This document shows, in pieces, positions 26,506 to 44,801 of a DNA stretch of 46,121 bases. The DNA is taken from the IMG/VR virus record IMGVR_UViG_3300018429_000062, positions 1-46,121 of that record. One strand, 5' to 3'. This DNA is from a virus. Each line of letters opens with the position of its first letter. Within the stretch, counting starts at the first letter, position 1. Made by a program: the position numbers and the translations under genes. The notes beneath the pieces are model-generated. The model searched no databases. It saw only the letters and a list, made by a program, of their open reading frames with translations, and was not told where the DNA came from.

Positions 26506-27519
26506 TTAATTTTCGTCGGTTGGCTCACTCTGCAGAGGCAGCGGTACCTGGCTATAACGACCACCGTAAGGAAGACTGACTGTGCCTGAGGCCGTGCGCT
26601 TTGCCTTCTCACCTCGTCGGTTGTAGATACCGGTTGTGCTCACGTTCGCATGACCGAGCAGCTCCTGGACTGTAAGCACGTCGGTCCCACTGTCGAGAAG
26701 GTTAGTGGCAAACGTGCGTCGGAGATCGTGAGGGGTGGCCTTGATGTTCGCCTCGCGCGCACGTCGTATGACAACGTTATAGAACGACTGTCCGCTGATT
26801 CGATCGGTGACAACCTTACTGCCACGTAGACGGTAGAACAATGGCCCCGGTTCCTCGCCTCGTATCTTCAGCCAATCACGTATGGCCATGCGCGCCGGCG
26901 CTGCACGTAGGTAGACCATGCGCTCCTTCTCTCCCTTGCCCAGCACACGCAGACCACCATCTGCTTCCGTGTAACCAATCAAATCCAACGATGCACACTC
27001 AGCCCTGCGCAATCCGCCCGTAAAGAACACTGCGAGTATTGCCGCATCGCGCACGCCGGCGAGAGACTTATCCAAAGCGCAGGCGTGCATCATTGCGGCT
27101 TTGTCTTCTTCCGTAAGTGCACGGCCGGAAGCCAGCTTCTTTCCCCGGGGCCCGGAGATTGAACGCAACTGTTCGCAGACATCGGCCGGGATAAGTCCAC
27201 ACTGCCAGGCCACCTTGCCCACTCCCCGGAGCGCAACCAACGTAGCCCGCACATACGACGGCGCAGCGCCTTCCTTCTGCAATTTTCCTTTTGCGATTAG
27301 TGCGATTTCAGGGAGGCAGTGAGGGTCGAGCTCGGGAAAGCCGGCCAGGGTAAGGGCGCGTTCTATCTTCGCGCGCATTGAGCGCGGGCCATCGATCCCC
27401 GAAAGAGAGGCGAGATAGACTTCAACAGGATTTGCGTTGCGTGAGCGTGCCACGGGGAACGCTAGCACTGTCGCCGGCTGAATTTTCGCGACGCGTTGTT
27501 GGGACTGATTAGTTGCCAC
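26506..27519 (-). CDS. XerC/D-like tyrosine recombinase (second recombinase of the prophage)
   Basis: 337 aa from GTG at 27519 (GAGAGG seven bases upstream). Catalytic residues visible: Arg in TGGLRRAECASL, Lys in the GKGEKERMV hairpin, H-x-x-R in TPHDLRRTFATNLL, His in LLGHANVSTTGIYNRR and the Tyr in that last motif. An N-terminal SAM-like core-binding domain precedes. It lies immediately after the replication initiator, far from the attachment site, so it is less likely to be the integrase than the gene at 43062. Plausible roles are dimer or concatemer resolution of the phage genome, or a captured integrase of a nested element. Confidence 0.9.
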   Translation of the reverse strand: MATNQSQQRVAKIQPATVLAFPVARSRNANPVEVYLASLSGIDGPRSMRAKIERALTLAGFPELDPHCLPEIALIAKGKLQKEGAAPSYVRATLVALRGVGKVAWQCGLIPADVCEQLRSISGPRGKKLASGRALTEEDKAAMMHACALDKSLAGVRDAAILAVFFTGGLRRAECASLDLIGYTEADGGLRVLGKGEKERMVYLRAAPARMAIRDWLKIRGEEPGPLFYRLRGSKVVTDRISGQSFYNVVIRRAREANIKATPHDLRRTFATNLLDSGTDVLTVQELLGHANVSTTGIYNRRGEKAKRTASGTVSLPYGGRYSQVPLPLQSEPTDEN

Positions 27520-27530
27520 GATGTTTCCTC

Positions 27531-28715
27531 TCAACTCGCTTCCGCAGTTCTGAATACATTTCCGGCCGCCGTGTGCCGGCACGGCCGTGAGTTAGGCAGA
27601 GACCACTCAACGTCAAAACCGTCGCAGCCCGCTTCACTCAGCGCCTGTCCCAGCAGGTTTGCATAGTTCACTTTCACCCAGTCTCGGACCACCTGATTAG
27701 GCGCCCAGAGGTGAAGAATGCGTCGCACCACGTCCAGTTCCACGAGGCGAATAGGGATCAACCACGTCTCGAACCCTTCACCGTGCAGTTTGGTGGAAAG
27801 TGAAGCGAGCACCTGATTCCAAACTGTGTTTCCGCTTTCTTCCGGTTCGGCGTATGGAGCTTCGCTGGTTTCGATTCCGGTGGCCTGACAGTGCGGGCAT
27901 ATCTGGCAGGGGCAAGGTCGATTCTTGAGCCCGGCGCCAAGACAGCTTTCGCAGTCAGCGTTCGGAGCCATGAGGTTTGGGTTCACCGTCCGCGGTGACT
28001 CAAACTGTTCAACCACACTCGAGCCTCCGGAATACAAGTCGGGCTGCACCGGCTCACGTTCCCTCGAGAGCCAGTGGAGCAGTCGACCTTTGTTCGGCAC
28101 AGTTCCCTCCTGCGCACAGTGGAAGACGAGTTTGTTTCTTACATGCTCGATCAGCGCCGGTGGATATAACTTGCTCGCAACCAGGTTCTCAACGAACGCC
28201 TCATCCAGCGGTTCTTTCTTAAAATCCTTTGTCTCGGTTGGAGCAGCAGCAGCTACTGGTTCCTTACTACTGGTTAGATCCTTATAGGGGGTTATAGGGG
28301 GAGTGACTTGAGATTCGGAATTTTCCGAAGTTGAGATTCGGAATTCTCCGAAGTTGGAGTTCGGAATTTCCGAAGTTGGAGTTCGGAATTTCCGAAGTTG
28401 AAGTTCGGAATTCTCCGAAGTTGGCGGTCCCGCTGGAGGTCCAAAGTCCCGGACCTTAAGCGGTGGAAAATCACCTACCAAAAGCTCCACCCTATGTCGA
28501 CCCAGCCGCTTGATCCAACCCTTTTCGATGAGCTTAGTCTTGCAGTCGGAAACATGGGTGTAACTGCAGCGCATCTCGGCCGCGAGGGTGGTGTTCGACG
28601 GGTTGCAGAGCCCCGAGGCAGTATTGCGGTGGAAGCAATAAAGCTCATAGAGGTGCCATGCGCCGGCTGTCAATTCCTTGCGCCGACGAATCGCGTCATC
28701 TGGTAATCGCGCCAC
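27531..28715 (-). CDS. Replication initiator: wHTH + DnaA domain-I-like C-terminus, origin iterons inside gene
   Basis: 394 aa. Residues about 15-82 form a winged helix (AWHLYELYCFHRNTASGLCN, NTTLAAEMRCSYTHVSDCKT). Residues about 92-140 are encoded by five DNA iterons. Residues about 254-282 are Cys-rich (CESCLGAGLKNRPCPCQICP), DnaJ-zinc-finger-like. Residues about 293-365 resemble the DnaA N-terminal domain (VWNQVLASLSTKLHGEGFET, WAPNQVVRDWVKVNYANLL), which recruits DnaB in host initiators. The layout parallels lambda O, with a DNA-binding N-terminus, iterons in the middle of the gene and a C-terminus contacting the helicase-loading machinery. The stop is followed at once by the recombinase's ribosome-binding site. 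Confidence 0.8.
   Translation of the reverse strand: MARLPDDAIRRRKELTAGAWHLYELYCFHRNTASGLCNPSNTTLAAEMRCSYTHVSDCKTKLIEKGWIKRLGRHRVELLVGDFPPLKVRDFGPPAGPPTSENSELQLRKFRTPTSEIPNSNFGEFRISTSENSESQVTPPITPYKDLTSSKEPVAAAAPTETKDFKKEPLDEAFVENLVASKLYPPALIEHVRNKLVFHCAQEGTVPNKGRLLHWLSREREPVQPDLYSGGSSVVEQFESPRTVNPNLMAPNADCESCLGAGLKNRPCPCQICPHCQATGIETSEAPYAEPEESGNTVWNQVLASLSTKLHGEGFETWLIPIRLVELDVVRRILHLWAPNQVVRDWVKVNYANLLGQALSEAGCDGFDVEWSLPNSRPCRHTAAGNVFRTAEAS
28281..28302. repeat. Direct repeat TTATAGGGGG x2 beside iterons
   Basis: Two copies of TTATAGGGGG lie next to the five iterons inside the initiator gene. They may be part of the origin as an unwinding or protein-binding site; inference only. Confidence 0.5.
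28314..28419. repeat. Five iterons (putative replication origin) within the initiator gene
   Basis: Cores at 28314-28329, 28337-28352, 28360-28374, 28382-28396 and 28404-28419, each TTCGGA-(3 or 4 nt)-TCCGAA, spaced 23, 23, 22 and 22 bp, about two helical turns. The spacing change shifts the reading frame between copies, so different peptides result (TSENSELQ, LRKFRTP, SEIPNSN). Conservation is therefore at DNA level, not protein level. This strongly resembles the lambda origin, whose iterons lie inside gene O. Confidence 0.82.
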
Positions 28716-28759: not shown

Positions 28760-29074
28760 TCAGCGGCGTGGCAGCCGACCTTGTTGACCTCGCCGCCACG
28801 GTCCGCGCACTACATTCGCCAGGTTAGCCGGCTTCTTCTTCGCAAACTGCCTGGCGTGTGTGCACGTCGCAAAATGATTCTTTCGTAGCACAAAACCGCG
28901 CTGTTTTACCTTCGCGCGCTCGTCCTTTGGAACGATCTCGTAGGTCGTGCCAGTGACGAGAATATTCCCGTCGGCCGAAGGCTCAACTTCAATCGGCGCC
29001 TTGTTGTGTGGCGGTTTCACATACCGACACATCATTATCTGGGCGCCACACTTTTCGCATGACCCGATGCGCAT
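28760..29074 (-). CDS. Small zinc-binding protein
   Basis: 104 aa. CEKCGAQIMMCRYVKPPHNK at the N-terminus offers C-x2-C and a third Cys with a His. The middle TYEIVPKDERAKVKQRGFVL and FATCTHARQF supply further Cys/His. The C-terminus is basic (VRGPWRRGQQGRLPRR). It is the last of three small Cys-rich genes after the E1-like gene, before the replication initiator (44-bp gap). Function unknown; nucleic-acid or protein-binding zinc ribbon likely. Confidence 0.6.
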   Translation of the reverse strand: MRIGSCEKCGAQIMMCRYVKPPHNKAPIEVEPSADGNILVTGTTYEIVPKDERAKVKQRGFVLRKNHFATCTHARQFAKKKPANLANVVRGPWRRGQQGRLPRR

Positions 29075-29079
29075 TTGCC

Positions 29080-29307
29080 TTAGACCGGCGATCGTCTGAG
29101 CCCGCAGCGACTCCGAGCGCGAGTTGTGGGGTCTCTCTTTCGTTCCAACTGATAGACCGGATACCAGAAAACCGAGAATTCATTCACCTCGCCACACCCT
29201 TTGCACTCCTCCTGAACCTCTTGTGGGGGACCGTCGGAATCTTCGAGCCAAACGGTCAAGGGTGCTTGGCACTTAAAACATTTGTCTTGTAAGGGCCAAG
29301 AGCTCAC
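29080..29307 (-). CDS. Zinc-ribbon protein, GTG start overlapping upstream stop
   Basis: 75 aa from GTG at 29307 (GTGA overlap with the stop of the previous gene). Two Cys pairs: CFKCQAPLTVW and ECKGCGEVNEF, a classic ribbon. The C-terminus is basic. It is coupled in the PRTRC operon downstream of the E1-like gene. Function unknown. Confidence 0.62.
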   Translation of the reverse strand: MSSWPLQDKCFKCQAPLTVWLEDSDGPPQEVQEECKGCGEVNEFSVFWYPVYQLERKRDPTTRARSRCGLRRSPV

Positions 29308-29525
29308 GCCGCCACCACGATCCTTTCTTCCAACAAGGTCTTGCCGCTGAGGTCCGCATTGGCCAAGGGATCCCATGTTGACTGGCACCACTCGCAATAC
29401 ATCACGGTGCAGGTCCATTGCTTACCCACAAAGGTTTTCGGTAGCGTTTCATCGAGTCCGCAGTAGGGGCAAAGCACCGATTGACGTTGGACTCGCACGA
29501 CCTGAATTCTTTGAAGATCGGCCAC
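29304..29525 (-). CDS. Zinc-ribbon protein directly after the E1-like gene
   Basis: 73 aa from GTG at 29525, which follows the ThiF stop by one base (TGA-G-GTG). VLCPYCGLDETLPKTF and WTCTVMYCEWCQSTW give two Cys clusters spaced like a ribbon or treble clef. Overlaps the next gene by GTGA. An upstream ATG at 29564 would lie inside the E1 gene and is less likely. Role unknown; a partner of the conjugation system is only a guess. Confidence 0.6.
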   Translation of the reverse strand: MADLQRIQVVRVQRQSVLCPYCGLDETLPKTFVGKQWTCTVMYCEWCQSTWDPLANADLSGKTLLEERIVVAA

Positions 29526-29526
29526 C

Positions 29527-30516
29527 TCACGCCACCATGCTCCTTGCCTCTTCCCGCAACACAAACTCCACCGGCCGTTGGATCTCCTTCGCGATCTCCT
29601 CAGGCGTGCAATAGAAAGATTTCACTGTTGTGGAAGCGAGGTTCGCAACCGACTGGTAAACCTTCAGGTCCTCGGTCACCAGTAACCGGGTGAGCAGGTT
29701 GTTGGCCATCCACGCGACGGCCGGATTGATGTTGAGCGATTGCAGGTTGGCCATCTGCAGTTCCGCGCAGCTCATTTCCGGCGCGTCAGTTTCATCACGC
29801 CCAGGGACCAGCAGCGACGGATACTGCAGCGCCGGCGACGGCAGCGCCACGCAATAGCCTGGACTCTTAACCCGGCCGTCAATCATCGGGCTTCGCTTAA
29901 CGAAGGCGCCCTCGCAGCTCGCCGGCGTCGCCGCCGTGCCGAGCATCACGCGCCCGGTGTCCTTCAGGTTGCCGCAGTCGAGCCACCAGAATGTTGGCAA
30001 GGCGTTTGGCCCAACGCGTTCCGGATTGTGCTGGAGCGTGGCGCTAAGCGTTTGTCGCGCGCGCGCATTGTCGACGCAGCCGACGATCACAATCAGCTTC
30101 GCATCGGGATTGAGGAACCGTTCTGAGTACTCCTCCGGATAGGCCGTGACGTCTAGCCCCCAGGCATTGCCGACTCGCCGCGCCAGGGCGATCGCCTTGT
30201 TCTCGCCCACCTCAGCCCGGCAAAACTTTTGCCGGCCGATGTTCTTTTCCTCAACCACGTCCGGATCGCAAAGCGAGAGCTGCACGGTCTTTTGATTGCT
30301 CTGAATCACGTACATCAACCGGGCGATATGCTCCACCGTGTAACTACCGATACCCCCGCAGCCGGCTACGACAATTTGTACTGACTTCCAATCGTCAGTG
30401 ACCACCGTCGCCGCATTCATGAAGTCCAGATTCAAGCCTGGCGCTGGGACCGCAGGCATCTTGCCTTCCGTTTGCTGCTTTGGCCCAACCTGCTTCCGAC
30501 TCTTCCCTCTCTTCAT
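29527..30516 (-). CDS. PRTRC-type ThiF / E1-like ubiquitin-activating protein
   Basis: 329 aa. GCGGIG at 52-57 is the nucleotide-binding loop. CDPDVVEEKNIGRQKF (83-98) has the Asp that coordinates Mg-ATP and the Asn-x-x-Arg-Gln motif of E1 adenylation domains. VGCVDNARARQTL and WWLDCGN follow. MSCAELQMANLQSLNINPAV (248-267) matches the PRTRC ThiF C-terminal signature and offers Cys250 as a candidate catalytic cysteine. The family adenylates the C-terminus of a ubiquitin-like protein. In the operon it follows the E2, JAB and two unknowns, overlapping the upstream gene by ATGA. Confidence 0.92.
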   Translation of the reverse strand: MKRGKSRKQVGPKQQTEGKMPAVPAPGLNLDFMNAATVVTDDWKSVQIVVAGCGGIGSYTVEHIARLMYVIQSNQKTVQLSLCDPDVVEEKNIGRQKFCRAEVGENKAIALARRVGNAWGLDVTAYPEEYSERFLNPDAKLIVIVGCVDNARARQTLSATLQHNPERVGPNALPTFWWLDCGNLKDTGRVMLGTAATPASCEGAFVKRSPMIDGRVKSPGYCVALPSPALQYPSLLVPGRDETDAPEMSCAELQMANLQSLNINPAVAWMANNLLTRLLVTEDLKVYQSVANLASTTVKSFYCTPEEIAKEIQRPVEFVLREEARSMVA

Positions 30517-31004
30517 ATCTTGTAACCCTCTTCGTTTCGCCCGGGTGTCCGGTTTCTTATTTCCAAAAGCTGAATGGGATCTCCGTCTGGAAAACGGTTC
30601 TGTAGGCGGCCGGATATTTCCTGCGCGTAATTAGCGATCAGGTCATTCGACAAATCGCAGACGGCAGACTTTGGATTTTCGACGTCCATCATGATTTTCT
30701 CGATAACACCCGCGGGCAGGTAATCGCGAAGTAAAAGATAAAGAAAGACTGTTGACCGATCCGAGGTTCTAACGCTCATGCTTTGTCGACGCTCCTGGCC
30801 CTCGGCTAGGTAATCGATATCGGATGGGTGGTAAGGCCTTGAGTGTTTTGCTTCACTAAGACGCACAGCTACGTGTGGACCACTTGCTCCGGTTATGACT
30901 CCGAAATTGCCCAGTGCTTTTACAACCCGATTCTTGAAGGCGGGAACACCGTAGGTGTTGCGAATATATTCAAGAGGATCGTAGCTTCTGCTTTGCCCGC
31001 CCAT
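30513..31004 (-). CDS. PRTRC-operon protein of unknown function (163 aa)
   Basis: 163 aa. The N-terminal half (SYDPLEYIRNTYGVPAFKNR, GVITGASGPHVAVRLSEAKH) looks like an SH3-type barrel. The C-terminal half is helical (VFLYLLLRDYLPAGVIEKIM, SNDLIANYAQEISGRLQNRF). The stop overlaps the E1-like start (ATGA). It is preceded by GGGGAGGG, which also encodes the end of the upstream gene. Not part of the canonical PRTRC set as I know it. Confidence 0.6.
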   Translation of the reverse strand: MGGQSRSYDPLEYIRNTYGVPAFKNRVVKALGNFGVITGASGPHVAVRLSEAKHSRPYHPSDIDYLAEGQERRQSMSVRTSDRSTVFLYLLLRDYLPAGVIEKIMMDVENPKSAVCDLSNDLIANYAQEISGRLQNRFPDGDPIQLLEIRNRTPGRNEEGYKI

Positions 31005-31010
31005 CTCGGA

Positions 31011-31247
31011 TTAGCCCTCCCCTTTTAGGAATTCATCGTTGGCTTCCTGCTCGTGAAATCGAACCAACCGGTCCTGAAAATCACTCTTATCAGCCGGGTG
31101 CGCTAACACAACAAAGCTTCCGGGCTTTCCCTGCTGTCGAATTACTAGGTATTCCTGCCAGTGACCCATCTTGTAATGATCGAGCGTTCGGCGCACTTCG
31201 GTCATTACAATGCCAAGGTCAGCCGCCAGATCTTGCTGAGTCGCCAC
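31011..31247 (-). CDS. 78-aa PRTRC-operon hypothetical protein
   Basis: 78 aa from GTG at 31247 (GAGAGG upstream), overlapping the end of the JAB gene by 29 bp. An N-terminal helix (ATQQDLAADLGIVMTEVRRT) reads like an HTH start, then YLVIRQQGKPGSFVVLAH and a helical acidic end. Function unknown. A small regulator or adaptor is possible. Confidence 0.55.
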   Translation of the reverse strand: MATQQDLAADLGIVMTEVRRTLDHYKMGHWQEYLVIRQQGKPGSFVVLAHPADKSDFQDRLVRFHEQEANDEFLKGEG

Positions 31248-31944
31248 TAGCCTCTCCCTTCACGCAATCGATCACGCCCGGCGGCATCTCAAAAAACTCA
31301 CTCGCCGGATACTCAAACAAGTGGCCAAACAGCCCGACTCTTGTGCGAATCGCGGGAGTGAGAAATATCGTTCCAATGACCCCGTAAACCCGGAAGCTCA
31401 TCGCGCCCTCGTCGACGTCGTCTTCCTCGCTAAACTTCGCCTCCAGCTCATGATGGCTGTGCACTTCAATCAGCGCCTCCGCTTCCGCGGTGCCCGGGCC
31501 TCGGGCTAGCGGCGCCACGCGACGCTCCGTACCGTGCTGCTCCGGAAACACCAGGTGCCAACCATTCGACGACATGACGGGCGACGGACGACGGACGACC
31601 GCAGCCTGATCTTCTCGGTCGGTCGTCGGTCTGCCGTCGTCGGTCGATTCGAACCGCAAATAGAACAACGCCTCGCGTCTTTCCTTCTTCGCGATGGTCT
31701 GCGAGATGGTGAACACGAGCGTTAACAGTTGGACCGGGACTTTCGGATACCCCCATTGCACGTAAGGCTCAAGCTCTCGCAGCCCACGCACCGACGCATC
31801 GGCTACTGGCAAACAAACCTCTAACCCAGGGCGCCGGCCGCGCGTGAATATGCCGTTCGCCGCCAGCACGTAATCCTGCAGCAGTGACTCGTCGACCGGC
31901 GGCAGCAACTCGCCGCGCCTGGCAATGTGGTGTTCAACCAGCAT
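31219..31944 (-). CDS. PRTRC protein A: JAB/JAMM metallo-isopeptidase
   Basis: 241 aa from the ATG at 31944. The JAMM core is IEVHSHHELEAKFSEEDDVD: H-x-H followed by S-x-x-D, preceded by a conserved Glu, all zinc ligands or catalytic. FRVYGVIGTIFLTPAIRTRV and LFGHLFEYPASEFFEMP are typical PRTRC A sequence. JAB proteases cleave isopeptide bonds or trim the Ubl precursor. A loop (about 100-125, DDGRPTTDREDQAAVVRRPS) is encoded by heptamer-like repeats (31573-31648) and lies outside the core. It overlaps the 167-aa gene upstream by 11 bp. Confidence 0.86.
   Translation of the reverse strand: MLVEHHIARRGELLPPVDESLLQDYVLAANGIFTRGRRPGLEVCLPVADASVRGLRELEPYVQWGYPKVPVQLLTLVFTISQTIAKKERREALFYLRFESTDDGRPTTDREDQAAVVRRPSPVMSSNGWHLVFPEQHGTERRVAPLARGPGTAEAEALIEVHSHHELEAKFSEEDDVDEGAMSFRVYGVIGTIFLTPAIRTRVGLFGHLFEYPASEFFEMPPGVIDCVKGEASGDSARSGG
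31573..31648. repeat. Heptamer repeats inside the JAB gene
   Basis: Two blocks of GACGGAC / GGTCGTC-type units lie in the coding sequence and produce a Thr/Asp/Arg-rich loop between the two halves of the JAB protein. Confidence 0.7.
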
Positions 31945-32437
31945 GCTTTTTCTTGCCTGTCTCCCCAATCGCCGGAAGTAGCGGCGCTAGCGCTCCCGGA
32001 GAACACAGTTGCCCTACTTGAGGCACGATGTGCTCGCCGATAGTCCGCCCGTCGGGCATCAGAATGTGAGCTAGAAACTCTTCCTCAAAGTCGGTAATTC
32101 CGCTTTCAACAGCTTCGAGTTTTGCTTTAATTGCCAGCGCCAGCGCACGCCACCGCTGGCGGCAAGCTTGCTCCCACTTCTTATGTTGCTGGTCTATCGG
32201 ATAAGTGTTTTTTGTGAGCTCCCCATTCCGAGTCTTGAAGATAAACTCGTCCTCGGTGCGACTGGGCAGAGGTAACTCAAACTTCAAACGTCGGTCAGAG
32301 AGTTCGAAAATGATTGCCGACCGCGAGTCTTCCTCGAAGAAGGCGTATTTGCTGGCGCCATAACGCTGAAGCGTAGATTTGATCTCTGCCTGGCTGCGCT
32401 CGCTCGATACTGTGGTTTCGGAAGCATATCTGCTCAT
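31934..32437 (-). CDS. Conserved phage/MGE protein of unknown function (167 aa)
   Basis: 167 aa. The motif series SETTVSSERSQAEIKSTLQR, YGASKYAFFEEDSRSAIIFE, WEQACRQRWRALALAIKAKL, ESGITDFEEEFLAHILMPDG, RTIGEHIVPQ is one I recognise as recurring in phages and mobile elements, without known function. Here it is inserted between the E2-like and JAB genes with overlaps on both sides, so it is cotranslated with the conjugation system. Single-strand annealing or DNA-binding functions have been guessed for phage genes of this position, but nothing here shows it. Confidence 0.72.
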   Translation of the reverse strand: MSRYASETTVSSERSQAEIKSTLQRYGASKYAFFEEDSRSAIIFELSDRRLKFELPLPSRTEDEFIFKTRNGELTKNTYPIDQQHKKWEQACRQRWRALALAIKAKLEAVESGITDFEEEFLAHILMPDGRTIGEHIVPQVGQLCSPGALAPLLPAIGETGKKKHAG

Positions 32438-33273
32438 TCCGGCATTTCTCCCGTCTCGAAATATCCCCGAATCGCTTTGTCCAGCGTGACGCCGGTGTGC
32501 GGAACTTGGCGCATCAGATCCTGAACTGGATACGGTTCAAAAGTCGGAGGGTTAGGAGGTCCGCCGTCGATCGTGATTTGCTGCCATCGTGGCGCCCGCA
32601 ATACCAACCGCACATCGTCCTTGTGCTTCTTCGACTTCCCTTCGCACCGGTGATTGTTAAAGGTGGACTTAATGAACAGCTCAAACGCGTCGAAGATGGT
32701 TCGCGCGGTCGCGCTGGGAGGTTTGAGCAATCCCCAGCAGATCGCGGCGTTGGCTTCCACGTTTGGCAGCGGGCAACGATAGACCTCGAAGTAAGGATCG
32801 AGCTGCGGCGTCTTCACCGCCCAAACGAAGTACTGCGTTCCAATTCCGAAGAACACCAGCCCGGGCAGCGGTGTCTTGATGCGATCAATCTCAGAAGTGA
32901 CGACTGGCGACCGCTGACCGGCGACCGTTGGGGTCGCGCCGTCCTCGCCATCGGTCTGCGGTCCGCTGTCTGCAGTCGGCGGCGCGAGCGCCTCCCTCGT
33001 CAGCTCGAGCTCATGCACACCTGGTGGAATAAATGCGACTGCCCACTCGCCCTTGCGGCCGTCGCCCCAGCGCACAATCTCCGGCCGCAGCCAGCCCGAG
33101 TCGATCGGGATGCCCGAGAATGCTTCGCGCACTGACGCATGCGAAACAAACTTCTCATTGCGGCCGCCCTCGATGTTCCTCATCCGCACGAGAAACTGGC
33201 CGTCGCGAAATTCAACGCACGGATTCTCAACTGCACTCTGCACCGGCGATAGAAGATTTTGACTCGCACTCAT
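32434..33273 (-). CDS. PRTRC protein B: E2-like (Prok-E2_D) ubiquitin-conjugating homologue
   Basis: 279 aa. Recognisable PRTRC B blocks: GEWAVAFIPPGVHELEL (76-92), PLPGLVFFGIGTQYFVWAVK (135-154), PYFEVYRCPLPNVEANAAIC (160-179) and FELFIKSTFNNH (197-208). This family is the prokaryotic E2-like group D. The likely active cysteine is Cys179 in AAICWG. Residues about 95-130 (ADSGPQTDGEDGATP and following) are a low-complexity loop encoded by heptamer-like repeats. It overlaps both neighbours by ATGA. It is expected to accept the Ubl from the E1-like protein at 29527-30516. Confidence 0.86.
   Translation of the reverse strand: MSASQNLLSPVQSAVENPCVEFRDGQFLVRMRNIEGGRNEKFVSHASVREAFSGIPIDSGWLRPEIVRWGDGRKGEWAVAFIPPGVHELELTREALAPPTADSGPQTDGEDGATPTVAGQRSPVVTSEIDRIKTPLPGLVFFGIGTQYFVWAVKTPQLDPYFEVYRCPLPNVEANAAICWGLLKPPSATARTIFDAFELFIKSTFNNHRCEGKSKKHKDDVRLVLRAPRWQQITIDGGPPNPPTFEPYPVQDLMRQVPHTGVTLDKAIRGYFETGEMPE
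32898..32975. repeat. Heptamer repeats inside the E2-like gene
   Basis: Units of the type GCGACCG / CTGACCG and CGGTCTG / CGGTCCG form a loop-encoding insertion in PRTRC B. Confidence 0.6.
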
Positions 33274-34391
33274 TCGAATTCCTCCGCCCCTTCAGTTAGT
33301 GCCAACAGCGCAGCCTCATCAAACGGATTCAAGTGGAGCAACTGATGCGGCAACGCCACCAACTGCCCTCGATGGTCAATGCCCGCTGGCCTTCCAATTC
33401 CAGCTTCGATCAAGTCCTCCGGCAACATGCCGGCAAGACCGGACTGGATCTCGACTCGCGCCGCCTCGTTCCAGAGATGAATCGCGGCCGCAATTCGCGT
33501 CTGCGGATCCTCTAGAAACCAGTTGTGGAGAGTGGTCATTGCGATCGCGGTATAGCGCGCTTTGGCCCACCTGATCGAGAGCCCTGCCATCTGCTGCAGT
33601 GACCACTTGAATCCCACCTGGCCGTAACCCGGCGGCAAGTCGAGCCAAACGTTTCCCGTCTTATAAGAGATCATGTCGAAGGCCATCGGCAGCCACTTGA
33701 GCGGCTCGCCTTCGACGCGGCAGGAATAAACAAACTGCGTCCACCCAATCGAGGCGAGCGGCGGCGCCGGCGTCTCGATACCCTCGAAGTCGTTAAGCTC
33801 ATCTAGGCCGTAACGCTCAACCATCCACTTCCAGGCGGCGTTATCTTTTGCCACCCAGCCGAGCGTAACCGCCAACTGAAATGGGATCGGAATGTCTTCC
33901 AACTCAAACCTGCCCGGCGCCCACGAATAGATCTGCATACCGCGCACAGGAATCATTGGCAGACAGAAACCCGGATCGCGCTCCAAGACTTCAGCTAGTT
34001 CGATTTCTGGATCTACGACAAGCGGAAAGAAGTTGTCGGCGCCGTGAATGAGAAGGTAGAACTCGTGCTCGCGCTGGGTGGAGTAGAGTGGCGCTGTGGA
34101 GCGCGCGTAATGTTCCGGAAGCAGCGCGCCATAGATGGCCATCAAGTCCGCAGCCAGATGCAGACGCGCTTCATATACCTTTTGCCAGTCGAAACTGCCG
34201 ATGAACTGAGGACTTGCGAGGCCGCGCATCGCCGGCAGCGGACTGAGCGCCTCGAGATATTCAGCGGCGCCGAGCGGCGTGCGGGTCCGCATCCGGCCGA
34301 CTAGAAACGTAGTCGCGCGCCCAAGACTCACCAGCTCACGACTAGCGAGCAGATGTTCAGAGACTGACGATGTTGCGAGGGTAGTGCTCAT
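33270..34391 (-). CDS. PRTRC-cassette protein in the 'F' position (function unknown)
   Basis: 373 aa. Not recognised by motif. Sequence features: LGRATTFLVGRMRTRTPLGA near the N-terminus, FDWQKVYEARLHLAADLMAI, WAPGRFELEDIPIPFQLAVT, WKWMVERYGLDELNDFEGIE, and a helical C-terminal half (RWAKARYTAIAMTTLHNWFL). In PRTRC cassettes the usual order is E, C, F, B, A, ThiF. This gene lies between the C-like and B genes, so it is called F-like by synteny only. Coupled to neighbours by TAAATG upstream and ATGA downstream. Confidence 0.55.
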   Translation of the reverse strand: MSTTLATSSVSEHLLASRELVSLGRATTFLVGRMRTRTPLGAAEYLEALSPLPAMRGLASPQFIGSFDWQKVYEARLHLAADLMAIYGALLPEHYARSTAPLYSTQREHEFYLLIHGADNFFPLVVDPEIELAEVLERDPGFCLPMIPVRGMQIYSWAPGRFELEDIPIPFQLAVTLGWVAKDNAAWKWMVERYGLDELNDFEGIETPAPPLASIGWTQFVYSCRVEGEPLKWLPMAFDMISYKTGNVWLDLPPGYGQVGFKWSLQQMAGLSIRWAKARYTAIAMTTLHNWFLEDPQTRIAAAIHLWNEAARVEIQSGLAGMLPEDLIEAGIGRPAGIDHRGQLVALPHQLLHLNPFDEAALLALTEGAEEFE

Positions 34392-34649
34392 TTAGAAACC
34401 AATCGGCACAACCTGACTCGCCACGGGCGGCGCCTGTTGGCACCTCGCGAAGGCGTGCATCACCGCGCGCCCTTCCTTTTCACCGGCGACGATCGCCGCC
34501 TCGACGCGCGGCGACCGGAGCAGCTTCTCGATATCCTCGCGATGTCCGCGCGTCTCCATCTGCATCACTTCCGCCGCTAATTCGATTGCCGGATTCACAT
34601 ACTCCGGAGCCGCGGCGAGGGTTTCCAGAACTTCCTTCTGTGCGTTCAA
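34392..34649 (-). CDS. 85-aa helical PRTRC-operon protein, TTG start
   Basis: 85 aa from TTG at 34649, with GGAGGG seven bases upstream inside the previous gene's last codons. Helical: EVLETLAAAPEYVNPAIELA, GHREDIEKLLRSPRVEAAIV, GRAVMHAFARCQQAPP. Function unknown. Confidence 0.55.
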   Translation of the reverse strand: MNAQKEVLETLAAAPEYVNPAIELAAEVMQMETRGHREDIEKLLRSPRVEAAIVAGEKEGRAVMHAFARCQQAPPVASQVVPIGF

Positions 34650-34653
34650 GCTA

Positions 34654-34923
34654 TTACCCTCCAATCACACTGGGAAACTCTTCACTCTCGAGTTTCTTGT
34701 TCTTCTTAGCGGCCAACACCTCAGTCATGATCGCTTTCAGGTTTAGTCCACCGGAAAGCATGAGCATGAAGAGAAGGGGAACCAAGTCTGAGTCTTTCCG
34801 CGTCTCCAATGCGTCAGCGGCATCCATGGCCTGCTTACCCAATTCGCGGAGTTGGCCCGCCATTCGCGCGCGTTCGCGCTGGCTGAAGTCTGGCTCAAAT
34901 ATTGCGGGGGGGGGTTGACTCAT
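34654..34923 (-). CDS. 89-aa helical protein ending in Gly-Gly
   Basis: 89 aa. Predicted helical (SQRERARMAGQLRELGKQAM, DADLVPLL-type hydrophobic segment, LNLKAIMTEVLAAKKNKKLE), ending SVIGG. The terminal Gly-Gly is tempting next to E1/E2/JAB genes, but the GGAGGG that encodes it is also the ribosome-binding site of the next gene, so it may be coincidence. The start overlaps the end of the Ubl-like gene, and both run through a C9 homopolymer (34906-34914) whose loss of one base would fuse them. Confidence 0.55.
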   Translation of the reverse strand: MSQPPPAIFEPDFSQRERARMAGQLRELGKQAMDAADALETRKDSDLVPLLFMLMLSGGLNLKAIMTEVLAAKKNKKLESEEFPSVIGG

Positions 34924-35143
34924 CCTTCATCCTTCCGCCTTCATCGTTGCCTTTTCCCGTCCCGCGCTTCACCACGCTGGCGGTGTGCGCCGAGCCAGAG
35001 GCGCCCCCGCTAACGACGGTGATGATCGCATTCTCCACGTCAGGAAAATCGACGCTCAGCGCGGCCTTTATTGCTTCTGGGCCAGCTTTGATAATTGCAT
35101 CGTCCAGCGTGACGGGCTTGCCCTCGATGTTCACAACTCCCAT
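34895..35143 (-). CDS. Ubiquitin-like protein candidate (PRTRC protein C / Prok_Ub)
   Basis: 82 aa from the ATG at 35143 (GGAG eight bases upstream). An upstream TTG adds two residues. The size and pattern match PRTRC C: a first strand (GVVNIEGKPVTLDD), a helix (GPEAIKAALSVDF), PDVENAIITVVSGG, then a last strand VVKRGTGKG (58-65) ending in the small-residue tail expected of the family. Here a further 17 residues follow (NDEGGRMKDESTPPRNI), partly encoded by heptamer-like repeats; the JAB could trim this extension. Location between ParB/zinc genes and F-B-A-ThiF equals the PRTRC C position. The assignment is by pattern and synteny, so moderate. Confidence 0.62.
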   Translation of the reverse strand: MGVVNIEGKPVTLDDAIIKAGPEAIKAALSVDFPDVENAIITVVSGGASGSAHTASVVKRGTGKGNDEGGRMKDESTPPRNI

Positions 35144-35145
35144 TT

Positions 35146-35346
35146 TCAAATCTCCAGTTTCAAATCTGAGATTCCGCTACCAACCGTTGCCGTGCAACTG
35201 AATGAATCAACGCGTTTGCCAGAACCTGAGCAACGAAGTCCGGGCGCCCAGTCGTGACTTGATAGGTAATCAAAGCTGTCAAAGCCGGTATAGATTTCAA
35301 TTCGCTTATCACAGTCAGGGCAGTCTACTTTCGGATTTCTGACCAT
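35146..35346 (-). CDS. 66-aa zinc-ribbon protein
   Basis: 66 aa. VDCPDCDKRIEIYTGFDSF gives C-x2-C, and LRCSGSGKRVDSFSC gives two more Cys. The stop overlaps the region just before the Ubl start. Its C-terminal residues (SGISDLKLEI) derive from a repeat-like AAATCTC stretch. Function unknown. Confidence 0.58.
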   Translation of the reverse strand: MVRNPKVDCPDCDKRIEIYTGFDSFDYLSSHDWAPGLRCSGSGKRVDSFSCTATVGSGISDLKLEI

Positions 35347-35599
35347 CTTTCGCCTTGGCTCTCAGCGCCGCCAGCGCCGATTCCTTATGCTTCGGGCAAT
35401 AGTCGAGACTGACTCCCTTGCCTCGAATTCGCGTCGCGCACCGGCTGCACATTTTCTGATCGCAAGTCTTGCCGTCCCCCACTTCAAAGTCGCATTCAAG
35501 TTCAACCCACCGTTCGGCACATAGGCGGCATCTTGTTCGTCGGGCCCGGCTGCGACAAAGAAAGGACCCGTCGCCAAGGTTGATGCACTCGCGCGGCAT
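35315..35599 (-). CDS. Cross-brace-like zinc protein next to ParB
   Basis: 94 aa from the ATG at 35599, four bases after the ParB stop. Ligand-like series: C24-x2-C27-x8-C36-x9-C46-x4-C51-x2-C54-x13-C68-x2-H71, eight positions compatible with two zinc ions. Families of this pattern (CDxxxGDGKTCDQKMCSRC region) recur in phages beside ParB-like genes. RING-like or B-box-like behaviour would be interesting beside an E1/E2 pair, but nothing proves it. A longer upstream frame overlaps ParB and is rejected. Confidence 0.65.
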   Translation of the reverse strand: MPRECINLGDGSFLCRSRARRTRCRLCAERWVELECDFEVGDGKTCDQKMCSRCATRIRGKGVSLDYCPKHKESALAALRAKAKDGQKSESRLP

Positions 35600-35603
35600 G
35601 GCC

Positions 35604-36992
35604 TCACCGCTTCTTCGCTGGCTTTTTCTTCGCAGCCGCGGCTTTCTCCTGAGCGTTTTGCGAAGCCTTCCACCCCAGTCTCTTTCCGTTCTTCTTTGTC
35701 GGACGCGCGGGCGTACTCTTCGACTTTGGACTTTGGACTTTCGACGTTGGACCCTTCTCCCCCAGCGCCGCTGCAATCATCTCGATTACAGCTTCCGGCA
35801 TCCGCGGAACCTCTACAGACCCAATGAGCTTGCGCACTGCCTTCTCGCGATCGGTCGACGCGTTGACCGTAACGTTCACCCCTGGGACTTTCGGAATCCA
35901 CGCGAAGCTAAGCGTGAGCATTCGCCCTTTCAGCAAATCCTCAATCGCCACCTGCTTCTGCGGCGCCGGGAGCTCTGACACCCTGCCTGCATCAGCTGGC
36001 GGATCCGCAAACCGCCGCTTGTCCGTAACCTTCAGCTGTTCATCCGGAGCAGAGATCGAGGCCTGCCCAGTCGCCTTCTTCTTCGCGCCAATGTTCGCTG
36101 TGTTTCTAACCTTGCCGTCTCGGCCCTTCGTCACTCGCGGCGCCGGCGCAGCCGGGGCACTAGCCCGACCGTGAGAGAGGGCTCCACCTGCGGGCGAACT
36201 CGAAACGTTTGGAGTTGGGCCATTGAGCTCGCGTCGAAGTTTCGAAACAAACGGCTCGCTCGTCCGCGTCTTCTCCGCTATCCAGCCGTTCGACATTACG
36301 GACCATTCCGGATCCCTCAGCATCGTCAGCACGGCGTTGCGCTTCTGCTCGTTTGTGCGGGGCAGGCCGTGGCTCGCGTTCTCGCCAAGTGAAAACAAGA
36401 CTGCGTCGCGCTGTGTTCCCTGGCGAATTTCACACTCGGTCCGCGCCTGCCCGTTCCTTTCGTCCGCTGCAGTGCGATGAAAGCCGCGGCCCAGCCAATG
36501 ATTCTTGCCGTCATAGAAAACGATACTCGGCTTAAACTTCGCGCCTGCTTTCTTGTCCTCGGCGTAACGAGCCACGGTCGCCAGGTCCAGCCCTTCGCGC
36601 GGCTGAGTTCCGCCGTCTCGCCGAATTTTCTTTATCGCGAGCATCTGCCTGGGCGCGGCTGTCGCCGTCTCTTCTTCTCCCGGTTGCTGCCCACCGTCCT
36701 TCGCCAACTGCTTCACCCGCTTCTTAATCTTCACCCGCGAAACTTTCTTCCCTTCGCTGCGCGTTTGCAGAATCAGCGCGCCTTCAATCGCCTCGTCCAG
36801 GGTTTTCACCGGCGTCGTGGCCAACTGCAGCTTTTGATTGCTCACGAGGAAGAGGGGATTCTCCTGATCATCGTTCTTCACCCGGCGCTCGATCTTCCAG
36901 CCCGCGTCTTTCAATTCCGCCGGCAACGCGGCGCCCGCGAGCGAAGAGGCTGACTGTTGATTGCCTATTGCTGTTTCCTCACTAGCCGCCAT
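35604..36992 (-). CDS. ParB-like protein of the PRTRC cassette
   Basis: 462 aa. The ParB/sulfiredoxin-type domain spans about 115-205 (AIKKIRRDGGTQPREGLDLA, IVFYDGKNHWLGRGFHRTAA, LFSLGENASHGLPRTNEQKR). It is followed by an HTH (about 235-256, NGWIAEKTRTSEPFVSKLRR), then a long basic low-complexity linker. A small beta domain lies near 350-405 (LTLSFAWIPKVPGVNVTVNA). Residues 259-266 (PTPNVSSS) are encoded by an exact 20-bp palindrome copy, and ADPPADAGR by a REP-like sequence. The tail is lysine-rich. ParB is the namesake of the PRTRC cassette. It may bind DNA and set the cassette's specificity. Confidence 0.88.
   Translation of the reverse strand: MAASEETAIGNQQSASSLAGAALPAELKDAGWKIERRVKNDDQENPLFLVSNQKLQLATTPVKTLDEAIEGALILQTRSEGKKVSRVKIKKRVKQLAKDGGQQPGEEETATAAPRQMLAIKKIRRDGGTQPREGLDLATVARYAEDKKAGAKFKPSIVFYDGKNHWLGRGFHRTAADERNGQARTECEIRQGTQRDAVLFSLGENASHGLPRTNEQKRNAVLTMLRDPEWSVMSNGWIAEKTRTSEPFVSKLRRELNGPTPNVSSSPAGGALSHGRASAPAAPAPRVTKGRDGKVRNTANIGAKKKATGQASISAPDEQLKVTDKRRFADPPADAGRVSELPAPQKQVAIEDLLKGRMLTLSFAWIPKVPGVNVTVNASTDREKAVRKLIGSVEVPRMPEAVIEMIAAALGEKGPTSKVQSPKSKSTPARPTKKNGKRLGWKASQNAQEKAAAAKKKPAKKR
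35708..35750. repeat. Heptamer repeats in ParB C-terminus (GACTTTG units)
   Basis: Units GACTTTG / GACTTTC / GACGTTG repeat and encode PTSKVQSPKSK-like residues in the ParB tail. The same unit type occurs near 6187-6214. Confidence 0.7.
36197..36216. repeat. 20-bp palindrome, copy 3
   Basis: Exact AACTCGAAACGTTTGGAGTT inside the ParB-like gene, read as PTPNVSSS on the minus strand. Confidence 0.8.
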
Positions 36993-37119: not shown

Positions 37120-37317
37120 AGGTACCTCAGCAGCTTGCCTGTCCTCCGGAAGCTCGAGATGGAGATTGTTAAGCCAGTCCCAAATACGGCGCGTGTGTTT
37201 TGTTAGTCGTGGTAGGATGGGGTCAACCTCCTTACGTGGAGCGTTTGGGTTTTCGTTTGGCGCCAGGCTGGCCTTCCCGCAAAGACTTCCGCCGCCCTGG
37301 CGCTTTTCTTGTCAGAA

Positions 37318-37337
37318 CCACCTGCGTTAGCGGGTGG
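37318..37337. repeat. REP-like hairpin CCACCTGC-GTTA-GCGGGTGG
   Basis: An 8-bp stem (one wobble) with a GTTA loop, immediately left of the MITE target duplication. It reads PPANAGG in a minus-strand frame. Related copies are at 15409, 38885 and 39400. Confidence 0.7.
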
Positions 37338-37346
37338 GCTTGCTTT

Positions 37347-38870: not shown

Positions 38871-38884
38871 AGCCTTTGTCAAAG

Positions 38885-39259: not shown

Positions 39260-39399
39260 TGTTCGTGGCGGAAGCTCGCGTCCTCAACCCCGCGCGCCTC
39301 GCCACGAACGAGGGCTCCAAACACGGCAAACCGGGGAGGTTCGCGCCGCATGCGCTGCACGCCCGAGCAACGCCTTGGAGCCACTCTTTCTTGTCAGAA

Positions 39400-39419
39400 C
39401 CGCCTGCGTTAGCGGGCGG
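39400..39419. repeat. REP-like hairpin CCGCCTGC-GTTA-GCGGGCGG
   Basis: A near-perfect 8-bp stem with a GTTA loop just downstream of the CII-like gene (39515). It could also act as its terminator, though no T-run follows. Confidence 0.65.
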
Positions 39420-39514
39420 GCCTAACAATAAATTTCAAAGAACTTTTGTCACTATAAAAACTAAGCGGGCGCTTGGTTCAGCCATCTCACCTACCGTTCC
39501 ACGCGCCCGCATCG

Positions 39515-43061: not shown

Positions 43062-44312
43062 ATGCCTCGAGGTGACCACTCCGGATCGGTAATCATCATT
43101 CCTGCGGTCAAAAACGGCCGCCGGGTAATCACGCCTGAGAAAATCTACGTCCGCAAACGCTACAAGGATCCGGCCACTGGAAAGCTGCGCGAAAAGAAGC
43201 GATTAGTCCAAAGTCGCACCGAGGCCCGGGAAAAGCACCCTGATCTGCTGGACGAAATTAAGAGCGACAAAACCAAGTTAGTCCAACCCGCCCCGACAGG
43301 CATTACTTTCGACCATCTCCTAGCCTACTTCCGAAAGCATTATGCAAAGCCAGCCAAATATCGCGGCGACGTCAAGGTCGAGGGCTACCGGTCAATTAAT
43401 ACCGTCAACTTCAACCTCAAAGTCCTGGAAGAGAATTTCCGCGGCCGGCTGCTGAAGTCCATCACGTATGACCAGCTTCGCGCTTTCAAGGAGCTGCGCC
43501 TGCGCACGCCGATAGTCTTCGTTAATAGTCAGAGGGAGCGCCAGGCAGCATCGGTGCACCGGGAGCTGCAGCTTCTTCGCCGGCTGTTCAACGTGGCAGT
43601 TCGAAAGAAGTGGATGCCCGAGAATCCGTTTCACCAGGGCGACACTTTAATTAAGACAGCCTCGGAGCCGGCGCGCATGAGGATCCTGACACAGGTGGAA
43701 GAGGCACAGCTCCTGGAGCGTTGCATTGGTCCACGCGAGCACCTCGGTCCATACATCATCTTCGCGCTCGAGACAGCGATGCGGGAGAACGAACAACTTG
43801 AGACGAAGTGCTCAGACGTTGACCTGGATGCCGGCGTCATCGGGGTGCGGAGAATGGGAGACAACCCGAAGCGAGGCTTCGATCGCCTGGTGCCGATATC
43901 GGATCGGCTCCGGCCGGTGCTGGAGAAGTTGATTGCAGATGCCGGCGGCGGCAAGGCGCCACTCTTTAAATTCCGGGAGCTGAAGCGATCGTTTCACACC
44001 GCGCTGCGTCTCGCCGGCATTGAAGGATTTCGCTGGCACGACTTGCGGCACACAGCGATCACCTGGATGGTGGCGGCCACTGACAACCCGGCCACGGTAA
44101 TGAAGATCAGCGGGCACACCCAGTGGCGCACGTTTCTCCGTTACGTGAACATCAACGCCGAACTGGTGCGGGGAGTGGCAGCGCAGATGAATGCGCGCCG
44201 GGCGGAAACTGCCAACGTCATCACATTTCCCGCTTCAAAGGGGCAGGAAGAGGGGCATGGCAAAAAGCCCCCAGTTCCCGTTAAGCCTCGCTCAGCGCGA
44301 AAACGTCAGTAA
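43062..44312 (+). CDS. Phage integrase (tyrosine recombinase) at the attachment site
   Basis: 416 aa. N-terminal arm-binding region (IYVRKRYKDPATGKLREKKR), core-binding domain (about 85-195), and catalytic domain: ALETAMRENEQLETKCSDV (Arg), the GDNPKRGFDRLVPI hairpin, FRWHDLRHTAITWMVA (H-x-x-R), ISGHTQWRTFLRYVNIN (His and the nucleophile Tyr). The basic tail KPRSARKRQ ends 14 bp before the tRNA-Arg 3' end. Location and length identify it as the element's integrase, distinct from the XerC/D-like protein at 26506. It would act on the tRNA 3' attachment site. Confidence 0.93.
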   Translation: MPRGDHSGSVIIIPAVKNGRRVITPEKIYVRKRYKDPATGKLREKKRLVQSRTEAREKHPDLLDEIKSDKTKLVQPAPTGITFDHLLAYFRKHYAKPAKYRGDVKVEGYRSINTVNFNLKVLEENFRGRLLKSITYDQLRAFKELRLRTPIVFVNSQRERQAASVHRELQLLRRLFNVAVRKKWMPENPFHQGDTLIKTASEPARMRILTQVEEAQLLERCIGPREHLGPYIIFALETAMRENEQLETKCSDVDLDAGVIGVRRMGDNPKRGFDRLVPISDRLRPVLEKLIADAGGGKAPLFKFRELKRSFHTALRLAGIEGFRWHDLRHTAITWMVAATDNPATVMKISGHTQWRTFLRYVNINAELVRGVAAQMNARRAETANVITFPASKGQEEGHGKKPPVPVKPRSARKRQ

Positions 44313-44403: not shown

Positions 44404-44445
44404 AGGTTGGTGAATGGTAAATGGTAATTGGTGAATGGTAAAGCG
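44404..44445. repeat. Heptamer repeat block upstream of the tRNA (GGTAAAT/GGTGAAT units)
   Basis: Repeated GGTGAAT / GGTAAAT / GGTAATT units lie just beyond the tRNA 5' end, outside the prophage. So the repeat class occurs in host DNA as well. Confidence 0.7.
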
Positions 44446-44470
44446 AGGTCAGTTCTAACAAGTAAACTGT

Positions 44471-44691
44471 CAGCTCTACAAATCGAACCGCCAGCTTTGC
44501 AAGTCAGACCAGCAGCTTTACAAGTCAGACCACCAGCTTTACAAATCAGACCGCCAGCTTTACAAGTCAGACCCTCAGCTTTACAAGTCAGACCCTCAGC
44601 TTTACAAGTCAGACCCTCAGCTTTACAAGTCAGACCCTCAGCTTTGCAAGTCAGACCCTCAGGTTTACCAGCCAGACCGCCAGCTCTGCGA
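44471..44691. repeat. 21-bp tandem array, about 10.5 copies
   Basis: Units starting CAGCTTTACAAGTCAGACC at 44471, 44492, 44513, 44534, 44555, 44576, 44597, 44618, 44639 and 44660, then a partial unit. The four central copies are identical, and outer copies are more diverged, as in arrays that expand in the middle. One plus-strand frame is open through it (unit ALQVRPS), but there is no start or codon evidence for a gene. Located in host DNA between the tRNA and the amidohydrolase gene. The whole stretch 44404-44801 has no supported gene. Confidence 0.9.
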
Positions 44692-44801
44692 AACCTCAGC
44701 GGGCTCTGCGTTTCCGCGGTTAATATTACCTGGATTACCAGTCACCGCAGAGGCGCCGAGACGCAGAGATAACCAGAGAAAAATTTGGGGTTGAGAACGC
44801 C

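Follow-up and report, generated by a model that had tools for sequence, protein, structure and literature searches.

We looked at a stretch of viral DNA of 46,121 bases, the IMG/VR record IMGVR_UViG_3300018429_000062 of a soil virus, which is called the window below and whose positions are used for all cassette coordinates. Its early operon very probably encodes a phage-borne, PRTRC-like cassette for the conjugation of a ubiquitin-like protein (Ubl). Judged from its genes, the window is a tailed prophage of bacteria: profile searches detected TerL (1.7e-200), a portal protein (2e-62) and tail proteins, and an integrase gene (43062-44312) adjoins a tRNA-Arg at the right of the window. The cassette is a chain of minus-strand genes running from 36992 to 29527 with overlaps of 4-29 nucleotides and few gaps, in the order ParB-like gene, 66-residue open reading frame (ORF), Ubl, 89-residue ORF, o90, F, E2, 167-residue ORF, JAMM protein, 78-residue ORF, 163-residue ORF and E1. 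The original prediction, made from the letters of the window, had placed these genes correctly in position and strand as one overlapping chain. It had also proposed a complete E1-E2-JAB-Ubl set in a phage early region, which was borne out, but it had overlooked the C-terminal tail of the Ubl, its helical partner and the link between protease and tail. In the following, JAB stands for the JAMM protease gene, o90 for the product of 34392-34664, and L-numbers (L001 and so on) for the loci of relatives. The features on which the finding rests are these:

34895..35143, minus strand: Ubl of the PRTRC_C/Prok_Ub type, 82 residues, with its ATG at 35143 and GGAG upstream (assigned from the families of its relatives)
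35143-34949, minus strand: predicted mature Ubl, residues 1-65, ending in TGKG (comparison with relatives)
34895..34948, minus strand: 17-residue C-terminal extension after Gly65, NDEGGRMKDESTPPRNI, plus the stop codon; predicted propeptide removed by JAMM (covariation of tail and JAB)
32434..33273, minus strand: E2-like conjugating enzyme, Prok-E2_D/PRTRC_B-like, with Cys179 and a downstream His208 (profiles and residues)
31219..31968, minus strand: JAMM/JAB metalloprotease, PRTRC_A-like, with E99, H170-S-H172 and S180xxD183 (profiles and residues)
29527..30516, minus strand: E1-like activating enzyme, PRTRC_ThiF-like, 329 residues (profiles and residues)

The three enzymes were recognized both by profiles and by their catalytic residues, and the residues named beforehand were the right ones. 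The E1 contains GCGGIG, D84/D86, N92-R95-Q96, K107, D149 and Cys250, and matched PF00899 (3e-14) and TIGR03736 PRTRC_ThiF (2.5e-41, 141.6 bits). The E2 matched PF14460 Prok-E2_D (4e-17) and TIGR03737 PRTRC_B (2.5e-11), and the JAMM protein matched TIGR03735 PRTRC_A (7e-10) and PF14464 (1.4e-4), both below the cut-off; its N-terminal region is present, with a weak DUF2016 match (0.015). Relatives were gathered with a profile of five E1s, and conservation was counted over 74 loci (58 with JAB) after de-duplication at 85%. The active sites turned out to be kept throughout these relatives: G52, G54, G55, G57, D84, N92, R95, Q96, K107, D149 and Cys250 of E1 in 74/74 loci and D86 in 73/74, Cys179 of E2 in 74/74, and E99, H170, S171, H172, S180 and D183 of JAMM in 58/58. 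The downstream His of E2, which is His208 in the window, is not universal in relatives at this spacing.

The 82-residue protein had been put forward as the Ubl of the PRTRC C type, and its relatives agree with this. The window protein itself gave no direct match in Pfam, NCBIfam or PHROG, and a PDB sequence search found no solved structure related to the Ubl or the E2. It is 71% identical to the L009 Ubl and 48.5% to the L008 Ubl; the syntenic Ubl of L001 matches PRTRC_C (2e-4), and iterated profiles link the window Ubl with that of L001 at 3e-11. Among 34 sampled relatives, 15 matched PF14454 Prok_Ub and 18 matched TIGR03738 PRTRC_C, and no other family was matched. The C-terminal Gly is kept in all 74 de-duplicated loci (120/120 prior to de-duplication). 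The fold was predicted with AlphaFold2 on the Ubl-o90 fusion of L008. In this model, strands (2-6, 9-13), helices (15-20, 22-31) and two further strands (41-45, 54-58) form blocks with a predicted local distance difference test (pLDDT) score of 75-94, most Ubl blocks reaching 79-94, a DKG65 segment lies beyond the last strand, and a low-confidence linker leads to a confident helical domain. The predicted beta-beta-alpha-beta-beta order is that of a minimal beta-grasp. Neither of the two results that the original prediction had named as fatal to it appeared, these being a structure prediction at odds with a beta-grasp, with no other Ubl encoded, and JAMM and E1 active sites that vary in relatives.

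The end of the Ubl varies among relatives in a way that follows the protease gene. The window Ubl runs 17 residues beyond ...VVKRGTGKG, and comparison supports the view that it would be made as an inactive precursor. Many relatives have the o90 domain in frame directly after the same Gly, joined at ...KG (for example L010-L015, L018, L022, L085, L087-L089, L094, L095 and L097-L100); betaproteobacterial prophages have other tails behind this Gly, and large phages have 2-4 Ubl copies in tandem with GVKG or GTKG ends. Eighteen of 120 loci are without a JAMM gene of this family (L007, L029, L030, L043, L045, L058, L090, L101, L105, L107, L112, L114-L116, L122, L123, L129 and L132), and in 18/18 the Ubl ORF stops exactly at the Gly. 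After de-duplication, 48 loci have JAB and a tail, 10 have JAB and a naked Gly, 16 have no JAB and a naked Gly, and none has a tail without JAB. The naked Gly is therefore found in 16/16 loci without JAB vs 10/58 with it (Fisher p=8e-10), a result stable at tail thresholds of 3-20 residues. For 13 JAB-less loci, PRTRC_A was searched for throughout the record or genome, several of the viral records being fragments, and none was found, while positive controls were detected in 2/2 cases.

At least 5-7 changes of JAB map onto the E1 tree, and the independent pairs (4-7) go in the same direction or are neutral, never opposite. The clearest sister contrasts in supported clades (97*) set the window and L009, with JAB and tail, against L007, which has no JAB, a Ubl that ends at the Gly, and overlapping E2 and E1 genes; L004 vs L090 and L021 vs L101 are other contrasts in JAB and tail. 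Because all JAB-less loci have a Ubl stopping at the Gly, the pattern argues, in its simplest reading, that the JAMM protein cuts the Ubl precursor after the Gly. By the same reading, loss of JAMM would require loss of the tail too, and JAB-less systems could not deconjugate with JAMM.

Several points weigh against the cassette being a PRTRC-like conjugation system with this mode of maturation. The E1, E2 and JAB products of the window all score under the curated PRTRC cut-offs: E1 misses by about 3 bits (141.6 vs 144.75 bits, TIGR03736), JAMM reaches 38.7 vs 101.8 bits (PRTRC_A) and E2 43.4 vs 131.45 bits (PRTRC_B), each of these still being the best family for its protein. The structure model comes from the L008 homologue and not from the window Ubl. 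Foldseek with the two-domain Ubl-o90 model of L008 returned nothing at E<=0.001 and hhalign of the Ubl family against ThiS/MoaD gave no signal, so that it is family membership and the order of the strands that carry the fold assignment. Independent JAB/tail events are few (sign test p 0.06-0.5), and with only 4-7 pairs this test was unable to reach significance. JAB must have a job besides tail removal, since in ten of the de-duplicated loci it accompanies a naked Gly. Lastly, no E3 and no substrate were identified.

PRTRC cassettes had been taken to reside mainly on plasmids and integrative elements. This view calls for correction, as the five-E1 profile found at least 117 IMG/VR viral contigs with the E1, and several cultured phages carry it as well. 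At least 94 genome contigs were also found, and the E1 matches 376 plasmid records and 36 phage records. Single-protein scans of the viral contigs with E2 and with ParB gave no relatives. The search for the same cluster in other prophages was successful: the order ParB-Ubl-o90-F-E2-JAB-E1 is colinear in L007-L026 and L085-L100, L007 and a few others being without JAB. A terminase was detected in 14/28 PRTRC-bearing IMG/VR records, with two families alone tested, indicating that the phage setting is no accident of the window. In the window and in L009, its sister phage, the early region holds the cassette, with the ParB-like gene on one side and packaging genes on the other; in L007 the cassette is placed before the terminase. 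Between the window and L009, cassette proteins are 42-71% identical and TerL 32%, while the ParB-like proteins are 37% identical over the matching part. Either the cassette may be under stronger constraint than the terminase, or it may be exchanged as a unit.

Cultured phages with such cassettes include BgVeeders33, KLEB27-3 and Arash. In the Bacillus phage KLEB27-3 (OM634661.1), gp199, annotated as hypothetical (L006:2709-3425), consists of four tandem near-identical Ubls with GVKG ends and the junction GVKG|MARTVKYG; E1 (gp194), JAB (gp195) and an E2-like protein (gp196) are encoded nearby. A 251-kb IMG/VR contig has two tandem Ubls (L070:4582-4947), and three Ubl-like repeats with TGTKG ends in Vibrio phage D69 (VPHD69_0307, L169:4301-5092) adjoin an E2-like gene, JAB and a split E1 frame. 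Salmonella phage Arash is virulent, its authors having found no lysogeny genes (PMC10585845), and its E1 (gp246c), JAB (gp247c) and E2 (gp248c) are adjacent. A 66-residue ORF with an RTGTKG end (OQ632216.1, complement 180513-180713; L168:107-307), whose frame overlaps the annotated gp251c, is likely the Arash Ubl, the annotation there then being in the wrong frame. GenBank labels the Arash E1 and E2 as structural proteins, following virion mass spectrometry. The published virion set holds 116 proteins, many of them enzymes, and its authors allow for carry-over of abundant enzymes; the table includes Gp246-Gp249 and Gp251, with a numbering that seems one off relative to GenBank (PMC10585845). 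These listings make at least the expression of the Arash cassette in infection likely.

Two other phages drew attention. In Bacteroides phage crAss001 (L172:5250-9660, gp79-gp76), a ThiF-like gp76, a gp77 with the JAMM motif HSHNNMATFFSGTD and a gp79 with a seemingly ubiquitin-like start form a group near replication genes, possibly a separate ubiquitin-like set in crAss-like phages. In Acinetobacter phage ME3 (L171:5736-8846), JAB is split right at the HxH motif by a segment of roughly 2 kb that contains a group I intron (81 bits) as well as a tRNA-Met, and the halves are annotated as separate genes.

We compared the cassette with known systems. Its genes follow the canonical PRTRC arrangement, ParB-(E)-C(Ubl)-F-B(E2)-A(JAB)-ThiF(E1). 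Like PRTRC, it has an E2 with a catalytic Cys and a downstream His, a Ubl with a conserved end Gly and a helical protein in the F position. Unlike PRTRC, the E-position domain is fused to the ParB-like protein, no D (StbA) gene was found in the window cassette, the Ubl has a C-terminal extension or, in relatives, a fusion, there are additional small ORFs, the location is a tailed prophage, and JAB is absent in some relatives. The PRTRC reference was NCBIfam TIGR03734-TIGR03742 with operon type 6d of Iyer 2006. That operon type encodes E1 and JAB as separate proteins, the JAB having an N-terminal alpha+beta domain with conserved Arg and Trp; its other products are a small Ubl that ends in a conserved Gly, an E2 whose His lies downstream, and a helical extra protein (PMC1779556). 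The window has the Ubl end Gly (74/74), though followed here by the 17-residue tail, the conserved Cys179 of E2 with His208 downstream replacing the classical His, separate E1 and JAB in one operon with two small ORFs between them, and a largely helical extra protein (F model, predicted template modelling score (pTM) 0.72). As its proteins score under the curated PRTRC cut-offs, the cassette is, by sequence comparison, a diverged PRTRC-like system of Iyer type 6d rather than a formal PRTRC member.

Eukaryotic ubiquitin precursors are fusions to ribosomal proteins or polyubiquitin, cut at the C-terminal Gly. The phage Ubls, in frame with a second domain or in tandem copies, resemble them by analogy only: the fusion partner is unrelated, and a JAMM enzyme stands in place of a USP/UCH protease. 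The E1/E2 chemistry is also that of CBASS, where Cap3 is a JAMM enzyme reversing the conjugation. Cap2 is an E1-E2 fusion that conjugates the CD-NTase rather than a Ubl (PMC12355090); in the window, contrarily, E1 and E2 are separate and no CD-NTase was seen in the cassette. Type II Bil (BilABCD) likewise has separate Ubl, E2, JAMM and E1, and in Bil it is the JAMM protease that exposes the Gly by trimming the end of the Ubl (PMC11354881). The two differ in that BilA has two Ubl domains and BilD is a pseudodimeric E1 of which only one half is active, whereas the window has a single Ubl and a 329-residue ThiF-like E1; Bil lies in bacterial defence operons, and the window cassette in the early operon of a phage, together with a ParB-like gene. 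In PADLOC, the 25 best matches of the window E1 included no Bil protein, and the other cassette proteins gave no Bil match. Assignment of the cassette to a known defence system was rejected, PADLOC giving weak E1 domain matches only.

In the mechanism that we propose, the window Ubl would lose its 17-residue tail by a JAMM cut after Gly65; in relatives, such a cut would set free the fused helical domain or separate the tandem Ubls. The conserved residues and homology of E1 suggest that it would adenylate the Ubl Gly and load the Ubl onto Cys250. E2 would take it on Cys179 and hand it to a substrate, most likely on lysines, and JAMM may also remove conjugated Ubl. Two readings would deny this chemistry. 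It is very improbable that 34895-35143 is not a Ubl and that the tail/JAB pattern is a phylogenetic accident: the window protein has no direct family match and independent JAB changes are few, and against this stand its syntenic position, the 71% identity to the L009 Ubl, the graded similarity to PRTRC_C via intermediates, the Gly in 120/120 loci and the absence of any contrary pair on the tree. The slightest chance of all is given to sulfur-carrier chemistry, where E1, Ubl and JAB would act in cofactor- or siderophore-type sulfur transfer with an incidental E2-like protein. E1 is indeed a ThiF homologue and JAB occurs in some ThiS/MoaD operons (PMC1779556), but the E2 Cys is invariant (74/74), and no rhodanese, sulfurtransferase or metabolic genes were seen in the cassettes examined.

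As to the role, the original prediction had suggested that phage or host proteins may be conjugated during replication, partition or takeover. We tentatively favour reversible modification of the element's own DNA-handling proteins, for replication or maintenance, because of the conserved place of the cassette and its occurrence on plasmids and virulent phages. The cassette is common to plasmids, prophages and virulent-type phages, and in sister phages it has the packaging genes on one side and the early regulators or ParB-like gene on the other. Behind this comes, as a lesser possibility, host takeover or counter-defence, in which the Ubl would be put early on host or defence proteins to disable them, with JAMM limiting or reversing the effect. 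The presence of E1, E2, JAB and Ubl in the virulent-type KLEB27-3 and Arash is in its favour, as are the structural names that GenBank gives to gp246c and gp248c of Arash after virion mass spectrometry (PMC10585845), but the 116-protein virion set is enzyme-rich with carry-over allowed by its authors, the same system occurs on plasmids and prophages that spare the host, and no host target is known. Defence or superinfection exclusion, whereby a cassette related to Bil and CBASS would tag incoming phage or sensor proteins and guard the lysogen, is unlikely. JAMM maturation of a Ubl is known in Bil-type systems (PMC11354881), and there is weak domain-level similarity of the window E1 to a PADLOC E1-E2 (1e-11) and of the L009 E1 to BilD (3e-5). 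Against it, PADLOC matches no cassette protein besides E1, the genes occupy a constant place within the early operon of sister phages and not a variable end, and virulent-type large phages, which are not residents with a host to guard, carry the cassette too. A broader proposal, which we rate a little below the favoured role, is that several kinds of tailed phages (temperate soil phages, betaproteobacterial prophages and large virulent-type phages) may encode their own reversible Ubl-tagging pathway acting on phage or host proteins in infection, with tail-blocked, domain-fused or poly-Ubl precursors matured by JAMM, some perhaps delivering E1 and E2 in the virion.

PRTRC-type systems were predicted in 2006 (PMC1779556), and no tested function of theirs is reported in the titles or abstracts of the 26 papers, among 5.39 million open ones, that contain the term PRTRC. 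A literature search without preprints and most subscription journals gave no account of PRTRC-type cassettes borne by phages, so that a prior description is possible; single cassette genes are already annotated in phages, such as 'PRTRC system protein A' in Acinetobacter phage ME3. What is new here, as far as comparison of sequences can tell, is a diverged PRTRC-like system that is borne by a phage and whose Ubl precursors are tailed, fused or in tandem. Its function is directly testable thanks to complete phage versions with invariant sites, a prediction on Ubl maturation, JAB-less loci as natural controls and cultured phages, which brings a little-studied bacterial ubiquitin-like system within reach in virus infection. 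For Arash, virion proteomics is already published and the Ubl is apparently annotated in the wrong reading frame. If active, these would be virus-encoded Ubl cascades with fusion and poly-Ubl precursors paralleling eukaryotic ubiquitin genes.

The remaining genes of the chain are the following:

35604..36992, minus strand: ParB-like protein that carries a C-terminal E-position domain and ends in a Lys-rich tail (tentative, from similarity to other ParB-like proteins)
35146..35346, minus strand: 66-residue Cys-containing ORF between the ParB-like gene and the Ubl (ORF call)
34654..34923, minus strand: 89-residue ORF that overlaps the end of the Ubl and for which no relatives turned up (ORF call)
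34392..34664, minus strand: o90, a helical domain with a P-x-GF end, which many relatives have joined in frame to the Ubl after its Gly (comparison)
33270..34391, minus strand: F-position all-helical protein, 373 residues (model, pLDDT 77.5, pTM 0.72)
31934..32437, minus strand: 167-residue accessory protein with a homologue behind E1 in L015 (43%) (comparison)
31011..31247, minus strand: 78-residue ORF, no relatives found (ORF call)
30513..31004, minus strand: 163-residue accessory protein (comparison)

The extreme C-terminus of the o90 domain, in the window and in fused homologues, is usually Gly-Phe. The F-position protein had been proposed from its place in the chain, and its model is in keeping with this. 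The window F matched neither PRTRC_F (TIGR03742) nor any other Pfam, NCBIfam or PHROG family, while the same-position protein of L005 does match TIGR03742. Foldseek found no match for the F model in PDB or BFVD at E<=0.001, and consequently its fold points to no function. The N-terminal ~55 residues of the 163-residue protein recur directly behind E1 in betaproteobacterial prophages (L048, L060-L062, L065, L069 and L084) and are, by this recurrence, an accessory part common to distant cassettes.

The ParB-like assignment stood in part. The protein is 45% identical (4.6e-36) to one in L019 that matches PF02195 ParB_N below the cut-off (2.4e-4), but it has no Pfam, NCBIfam or PHROG match of its own, and the evidence is weak. 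A Lys-rich tail with 12-15 Lys per last 45 residues is found on the ParB-like (or upstream) protein in the window, L008, L009, L022 and L026, and could possibly serve as a conjugation site or in DNA binding. We rejected it as a general conjugation substrate, since only the window clade, L022 and L026 have the tail.

Some other observations concern the prophage itself. The tRNA-Arg end has no good counterpart elsewhere in the window that would mark a left attachment site, and tandem 21-nucleotide repeats (44428-44721) adjoin the tRNA-Arg attachment region. The flanking M20 peptidase did not point to a host. Besides the integrase at 43062-44312, the early operon has a second tyrosine recombinase (26506-27582; PF00589, 1e-27). 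A DnaA domain I (PF11638, 6e-14) lies towards the C-terminus of a replication-initiator-like protein (27531-28715), and repeats of about 22 nucleotides within the gene of this protein (28299-28429) resemble an origin. Finally, dispersed repeats of about 35 nucleotides, two of them 94% alike, were seen upstream of early genes at 37305-37339 and 39387-39421, and also at 38872 and 15396.

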